Part shown: piece after piece, positions 28,611 through 29,143 of the stretch
Layout of the letters: every line of letters begins with the position of its first letter
Numbering within the stretch: the stretch's first letter is position 1
Origin: a virus
Length of the DNA: 35,758 bases
Virus record (IMG/VR): IMGVR_UViG_3300009163_000093
Location: 1 to 35,758 of that record
Strand: one strand, 5' to 3'
The notes under the pieces: generated by a model
What the model was told of the DNA's origin: nothing
Database searches by the model: none
Seen by the model: only the letters and a program-made list of their open reading frames with translations
Position numbers and translations under genes: made by a program

Positions 28611-28690
28611 AATTTTCGAGATTGCGAGTCAGCCTCCGATTCTATACAGTGATTCTCGACTGTGATAGGAGATAAAGCAGACCGCTCACT
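28611..28690 (+). ncRNA. Putative structured RNA with a pseudoknot (unknown family)
   Basis: A 113-nt gap between genes holds a stem CTAT/CAGT (28642-28645, 28647-28650) with ACTG/ATAG (28659-28662, 28665-28668), extended outward by CTC (28634-28636) with GAG (28669-28671). The hairpin loop contains TCTCG (28654-28658), complementary to CGAGA at 28617-28621, which gives an H-type pseudoknot. Base composition is less AT-rich than the flanks. No riboswitch or ribozyme family recognised. It could be the leader of the next gene or a separate RNA. Confidence 0.5.
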
Positions 28691-28912: not shown

Positions 28913-28920
28913 TAATTAAA

Positions 28921-29098
28921 ATTTGAAGGAATGTTGGCCTAGAAGCAGCCATCATCTAAGGAGTAGGAATACAGGCCAAGCCGACAAACTGTAGAAACAT
29001 GTGAGGTCGCTATTTAATTATGTTTTGATTTGGTTCGGGGAGGACAATAAAGCGATTGACTGTAAACGGCCTTTTGGCGTAAAAGCACACCTTCACCA
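28921..29098 (+). ncRNA. Putative RNA carrying a mimic of the 23S rRNA GTPase-associated centre
   Basis: A non-coding stretch of about 230 nt before rIIA. Positions 28931-28959 match E. coli 23S rRNA 1057-1085 (helix 43 of the GTPase-associated centre) at 27 of 29 sites. The match continues with gaps to 28971 through the helix 44 loop. The equivalents of A1067 (28941) and A1095 (28968) are kept. The two sites equivalent to U1082 and A1086 have changed to C and G, as a kept pair would. Further 3', CGAC (28982-28985) pairs with GTCG (29006-29009) and TCGCT (29007-29011) with AGCGA (29051-29055) as alternatives. A hairpin ACG-CC-TTTT-GG-CGT lies near 29066-29080. The comparison is from memory of the rRNA sequence. 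I do not know a described phage RNA like this. Confidence 0.6.
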
Positions 29099-29107
29099 TT
29101 TTTCTCA

Positions 29108-29137
29108 TTGACAAACACTCTTTTGCACGCATATTAA
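29108..29137 (+). promoter_or_regulatory. Promoter of rIIA, leaderless type
   Basis: TTGACA (29108-29113), 18-nt spacer, TATTAA (29132-29137), then 6 nt to the ATG at 29144. It lies after the RNA region, so rIIA has its own start and the RNA is not merely its leader. Confidence 0.7.
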
Positions 29138-29143
29138 CTCACA

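Follow-up and report, generated by a model that had tools for sequence, protein, structure and literature searches.

Phage RNAs resembling the GTPase-associated centre of 23S rRNA occur in a widespread family near tRNA genes

The L11-binding domain of the 23S rRNA GTPase-associated centre (GAC) is an autonomously folding 58-nt fragment (E. coli 1051–1108) to which uL11 and thiostrepton bind. uL11 is an abundant protein and is needed for the activation of RelA. Mimicry of rRNA was previously known mainly in the leaders of ribosomal-protein mRNAs, where autoregulatory elements of the L1, L10 and S15 types bind a ribosomal protein in this way. Other RNAs resemble the one described here in their setting: the structured phage RNAs GOLLD and ROOL often lie near tRNAs, and T4 rnaC and rnaD, which are small, stable and non-coding, belong to a phage tRNA cluster. 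The RNA described here shares rRNA mimicry with the leaders but is phage-borne, lies near tRNAs and has no ribosomal-protein gene or conserved gene downstream. GOLLD and ROOL are far larger, and neither gave an Rfam match in the window or in 20 family loci. T4 rnaC and rnaD were rejected as homologues, as there was no covariance-model match in locus L201 and no GAC motif in the rnaC and rnaD sequences. Phages carry, close to their tRNAs, a separate RNA version of the factor-docking site of the ribosome, in which the tertiary contacts are conserved.

The window, meaning the whole stretch of DNA analysed, is a viral record of 35,758 bases with genes including tail fibre J, minor tail, rIIA and rIIB-like genes; ARAGORN and Rfam found no tRNA or tmRNA in it. 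In the non-coding stretch before rIIA (28913–29143), the first-pass annotation had noticed a copy of helix 43 in which 28931–28959 equals E. coli 23S 1057–1085 at 27 of 29 positions. The count was right, and the differences from both E. coli and Salmonella were C for U1065 and C for U1082. Over 28931–28962 there were three differences from 23S in 32 nt (BLASTN, 90.6% identity, E 3e-5), and this 32-mer matched once in the window versus 0.00 times expected in shuffled sequence. The bases contacted by thiostrepton and factors, A1067 and A1095, are both A in the window, as had been stated; the former was correctly placed at 28941, but the latter lies at 29081, outside the segment 28931–28971 to which it had been assigned. 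The same annotation had described a small module of 41 nt whose flanks were not obviously rRNA-like, which was found to be incorrect on both points. A second rRNA-like module, including a perfect 19-mer of the family motif (29073–29091), lies 110 nt downstream of the helix 43 module, and the outer flanks pair as helix 42. The feature extends over ~172 nt, and its ends are predicted to fold into a complete GAC, consisting of helix 42, helix 43 and the tip of helix 44, around an insert of 108 nt (Table 1).

Table 1. Elements of the GAC-like RNA in the window, with the E. coli 23S rRNA positions to which they correspond
Feature	Coordinates	Strand	Evidence
Whole RNA, minimal extent (helix 42 to helix 42)	28924..29095	+	Both conserved modules and closing helix; 157 non-redundant relatives; covariation
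Helix 42, 5′ strand TGAAGG (1050–1055)	28924..28929	+	Six Watson-Crick pairs with 29090–29095
A1056 equivalent, base-triple partner	28930	+	1056/1082/1086 are A/C/G in the window
Helix 43 (1057–1081); A1067 equivalent at 28941	28931..28955	+	Match to 23S; pairs 1057–1081 and 1058–1080 covary
Junction and helix 44, 5′ strand (1082–1090); A1088 equivalent at 28962	28956..28964	+	U1060–A1088 conserved; G1087 invariant
Insert domain splitting helix 44 between 1090 and 1091, with AGG/CCT closing it	28965..29072	+	Same site in all members; closing helix covaries
TTTG linker, family-specific, absent from 23S rRNA	29073..29076	+	TTT in 96/96 members, then G in 93 and A in 3
Helix 44 tip and 3′ strand (1091–1103); A1095 equivalent at 29081	29077..29089	+	GCGTA(R)(N)AGCACA nearly invariant
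Helix 42, 3′ strand CCTTCA (1104–1109)	29090..29095	+	Pairs with 28924–28929; covariation

The Rfam LSU model, which had been suggested as a check, gave no match at its gathering threshold or at E ≤ 10; this result is not diagnostic, because the 108-nt insert splits the domain. On thermodynamic folding the window RNA was not unusually stable (z +2.5), and helix 43 was missing from the minimum-energy fold of this RNA alone, so the case for the RNA rests on comparative data. A search for a sigma-70 promoter or a terminator near the RNA on the + strand gave nothing above chance. Elsewhere in the window, a second intergenic segment (28612–28690, z –1.5) contains a strong hairpin, CTAT-ACAGT...ACTGT-ATAG, inside a longer pairing; the segment, almost unchanged in L326, which is the nearest relative of the window phage, is possibly another small RNA.

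When 23S rRNA was compared by BLAST with the first 31 fetched loci and the window, true 23S DNA was found in only two records (L020 and L028). In the others ~30–37 nt aligned per copy, and 23S sequence did not continue on either side of the element. Side-by-side comparison of loci revealed a second conserved module, TTTGGCGTARNAGCACAC, located 80–394 nt after the first. It corresponds to the tip of helix 44 (23S GCGUAAUAGCUCAC). After it comes the strand complementary to the bases immediately preceding helix 43; together they form helix 42. At least 236 viral contig stretches (111, 68 and 57) contained this distal motif, versus ~4 expected by chance, an estimate derived from a random 15-mer that gave 29 matches in viral contigs. 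A search of 84,980 genomes of bacteria and archaea gave 35 matches to it, 16 of them with the first module upstream. Altogether, both modules were found at 220 loci, 157 of them non-redundant. Isolated phages are among the carriers (pf16, UNO-G1W1, Astolliot, Serratia BF and XacN1), and the other named ones are XbC2, XaC1, GAP32, CBB, six Erwinia SNUABM phages, Kaldavass, Milchi, Aeromonas 4_4572 and probably also Vibrio 2.275.O. The bacterial copy that was most closely inspected, in the cultured strain Flintibacter muris DSM 110149, lies in a prophage and adjoins phage tail-fibre and RNA-ligase genes. In some phages two copies at different sites were apparent (G046, with L098 and L213; G052; G034; G058).

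Compared with the ribosomal GAC, the phage RNAs are alike in helices 42, 43 and 44, the U1060–A1088 contact, the covarying triple 1056/1082/1086, A1067 and A1095. They differ in being free-standing genes with an insert of 25–441 nt between 1090 and 1091 and a TTT(G/A) linker, in having A1101, which gives a U1090–A1101 pair, in a relaxed A1067, and in a helix 42 that ends after ~5–14 bp. Since the insertion point, the TTT linker and A1101 are common to all members, sequence comparison indicates that the family, widespread in phages, has a single origin. Rfam 15 detected only tRNAs in 20 family loci and had no family matching the RNA. No published description was found in open PMC papers, the range of the search, in agreement with the first-pass annotation, which knew of no such phage RNA.

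Covariation was analysed in 40 diverse members with the inserts trimmed to 8+8 nt. Paired cells amounted to 88.5%, versus 66.2% for shuffled and 33–51% for slid alignments; 17 of 25 pairs showed changes on both sides, and the covariation score was 0.559 versus 0.140 (shuffled) and 0.10–0.15 (slid). RNAalifold, run unguided, recovered helices 42 and 43 and the insert helix. Across the family, both sides changed in 8 of 9 pairs of helix 42, and all five pairs of the helix closing the insert covaried. The C1082/G1086 combination of the window, which had been proposed as a compensatory change, proved real and was accompanied by A1056. The main states of the 1056/1082/1086 triple were G.U.A (63), A.C.G (35, the window type), A.U.A (17) and G.A.U (16), and their mutual information was reached by none of 5000 shuffles. 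The U1060–A1088 contact was T–A in 96 of 96 members. Positions 1055, 1059, 1072, 1085, 1087, 1091–1094, 1098–1100 and 1102–1104 were 99.5–100% conserved, A1095 was conserved at 99% and A1067 at 82%, and the helix 44 tip was the most conserved part of the RNA. Because the alignment, with its inserts trimmed, was centred on the motif, full conservation of a column is in part a product of the search patterns (TTTGGCGTARNAGCACAC and the helix 43 core). The exact pattern that fetched most loci does not include the covarying positions of helix 42, of the insert helix or of 1056–1058/1080–1086. The fold is under selection rather than a product of chance, as had been claimed. The same covariation refutes the view that the element is a non-functional rRNA relic, an assembly contaminant or an attachment-site copy of host 23S DNA. 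True 23S DNA in two records is in line with such an origin, but the fixed insert and linker and the existence of >150 independent elements also oppose it, leaving it with a negligible probability. Contamination with true 23S was confined to those two records, and recent copying of host 23S was rejected, since the copies in bacterial genomes diverge from the 23S present in each of those genomes.

The element, in the non-coding DNA before rIIA, had originally been viewed as part of a phage transcript, with mRNA regulation as one possible role. A GAC mimic in the 5′ UTR of rIIA or of another gene, exerting control via uL11 binding, would fit the same-strand position of the window RNA, 49 nt upstream of rIIA, and rRNA-mimicking ribosomal-protein leaders are well known (PMC10931766). 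Yet the neighbouring proteins were unrelated between loci, which disfavours a cis-acting leader: the largest family among 568 neighbouring proteins occurred at 3 loci, and the commonest family among 145 neighbours, HNH endonuclease, numbered 5. The nearest tRNA within 1.5 kb was on the strand of the RNA in 94 of 94 cases. Most carriers are large phages with many tRNA genes: such genes were present in 48 of 50 large carriers (1285 matches in ~11.1 Mb) versus 2 of 29 random viral records (2 matches in ~0.69 Mb), the latter being smaller viruses, which makes size a confounder; 75 of the 204 motif carriers listed were contigs of >100 kb, versus 1 of 29 random contigs. L326, whose rIIA is 96% identical to that of the window, has neither the GAC RNA nor the small ORF before it. 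At the corresponding slot (L326:2844–2953) it has a tRNA-like gene whose variable arm is long; this gene scored 39.5 bits with the Rfam tRNA model and went undetected by ARAGORN. The leader reading is therefore already largely refuted, and we consider it highly improbable. Because of the tRNA strand agreement, the variable neighbours and the tRNA in the slot of the relative, the RNA is classed from its sequence context as an RNA gene acting in trans and not as a leader of rIIA, and it behaves as an accessory RNA-gene cassette interchangeable with a tRNA. Conservation in relatives, which had been named as a check, gave a divided answer: covarying homologues were widespread, but the RNA was absent from the closest relative although the flanks were conserved. 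This absence reflects accessory cassette exchange, not chance. Near individual copies, several suggestive genes were seen: an RNA kinase-phosphatase-ligase (L170, 2522–4714), a PHROG RNA-binding protein (L175, 2070–3593), a 2′-5′ RNA ligase (L027, 1833–2483), and an L12-CTD-like small protein and a Macro-domain gene (L088, 3398–3604 and 6055–6504).

We regard it as probable that these RNAs form an undescribed, widespread class of trans-acting phage RNAs that rebuild the 23S centre off the ribosome, capture host uL11 or GAC-directed factors, and reprogramme translation, stringent signalling or defence. A more specific proposal, which we put forward tentatively as somewhat short of an even chance, is that the RNA acts as a GAC decoy away from the ribosome, binding host uL11 and altering translation control. 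The RNA would be expressed as a stable RNA and act in trans as a stand-in for the GAC, and its retained 58-nt unit (1051–1108) would bind uL11, as the conserved fold suggests. Host uL11 is the presumed ligand because the L11-fold residues are conserved, A1067 is relaxed, and the carriers checked encode no uL11 (0 of 50). The invariance of 1072, 1085 and 1087 together with the relaxed A1067 would favour the L11-fold surface over the factor loop; it was reported that RelA-bound tRNA stacks on A1067 (PMC5829649). Newly made uL11 might be taken up, or a small RNA–uL11 particle might form and engage factors that recognise the site. As a result, translation and RelA-dependent stringent signalling might be altered during infection, alongside tRNAs that sustain phage translation. 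Against a uL11 decoy, titration of this abundant protein needs a highly expressed RNA, and the RNA is missing from the phage most closely related to that of the window. If true, the proposal would help explain the role of RNA genes in tRNA-rich phages and provide natural, evolution-tested uL11-binding RNAs.

The main rival to a uL11 decoy is a toxin decoy, in which the RNA soaks up effectors of the host or of competitors that attack the GAC, such as Tre23-like ADP-ribosyltransferases; we judge it rather unlikely. Phage tRNAs offset tRNA-cleaving defences, which offers an analogy in these tRNA-rich carriers, and the helix 44 tip is the part of the RNA that is most conserved. A toxin directed at this site exists (PMC8636562; PMC9990079): Tre23, which blocks the GAC, has helix 44 of 23S rRNA as its target for ADP-ribosylation (PMC8636562). 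RNA-repair genes were found near some copies (kinase-phosphatase-RNA ligase, in the Flintibacter prophage; 2′-5′ RNA ligase, in XacN1; RNA_ligase and RtcB matches among neighbours), and Macro-domain genes in 13 of 50 carriers, the only set searched, three of them within 4 kb of the RNA. However, the association with neighbouring genes is weak and uncontrolled, and the attacked element alone would suffice for such a decoy, whereas the entire L11-fold is retained. We know of no GAC-directed toxin that serves as a phage defence. Either binding of uL11 or blocking of GAC-targeting toxins would constitute a new route by which phages control or protect translation.

The insert probably has a second function that is specific to the lineage. 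A further rival reading is a scaffold, in which the GAC part docks as a handle on uL11, the stalk or translation GTPases and delivers to them the insert, as the effector, or an insert-bound protein. In its favour, every member has an insert at one fixed site, and the helix that closes it covaries. Genes resembling the bL12 C-terminal domain were found in 9 of 50 carriers, a frequency known from carriers alone with no control set. A 3′ element of the insert, consisting of CACCCC, a hairpin with a GNRA or UMAC-like tetraloop, and GGTAAGG, was common to sub-families amounting to 35 of 157 members. But the inserts are very diverse in sequence as well as in length, and a scaffold role is considered distinctly unlikely. 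The CACCCC-tetraloop-GGTAAGG element, as in L023, L025, L048 and L139, looks like a conserved sub-domain. A second insert was observed in helix 43 near 1078, after which the GAC sequence resumes, in L091, L094, L109, L115, L128, L130, L133, L038, L060, L068, L090 and L114.
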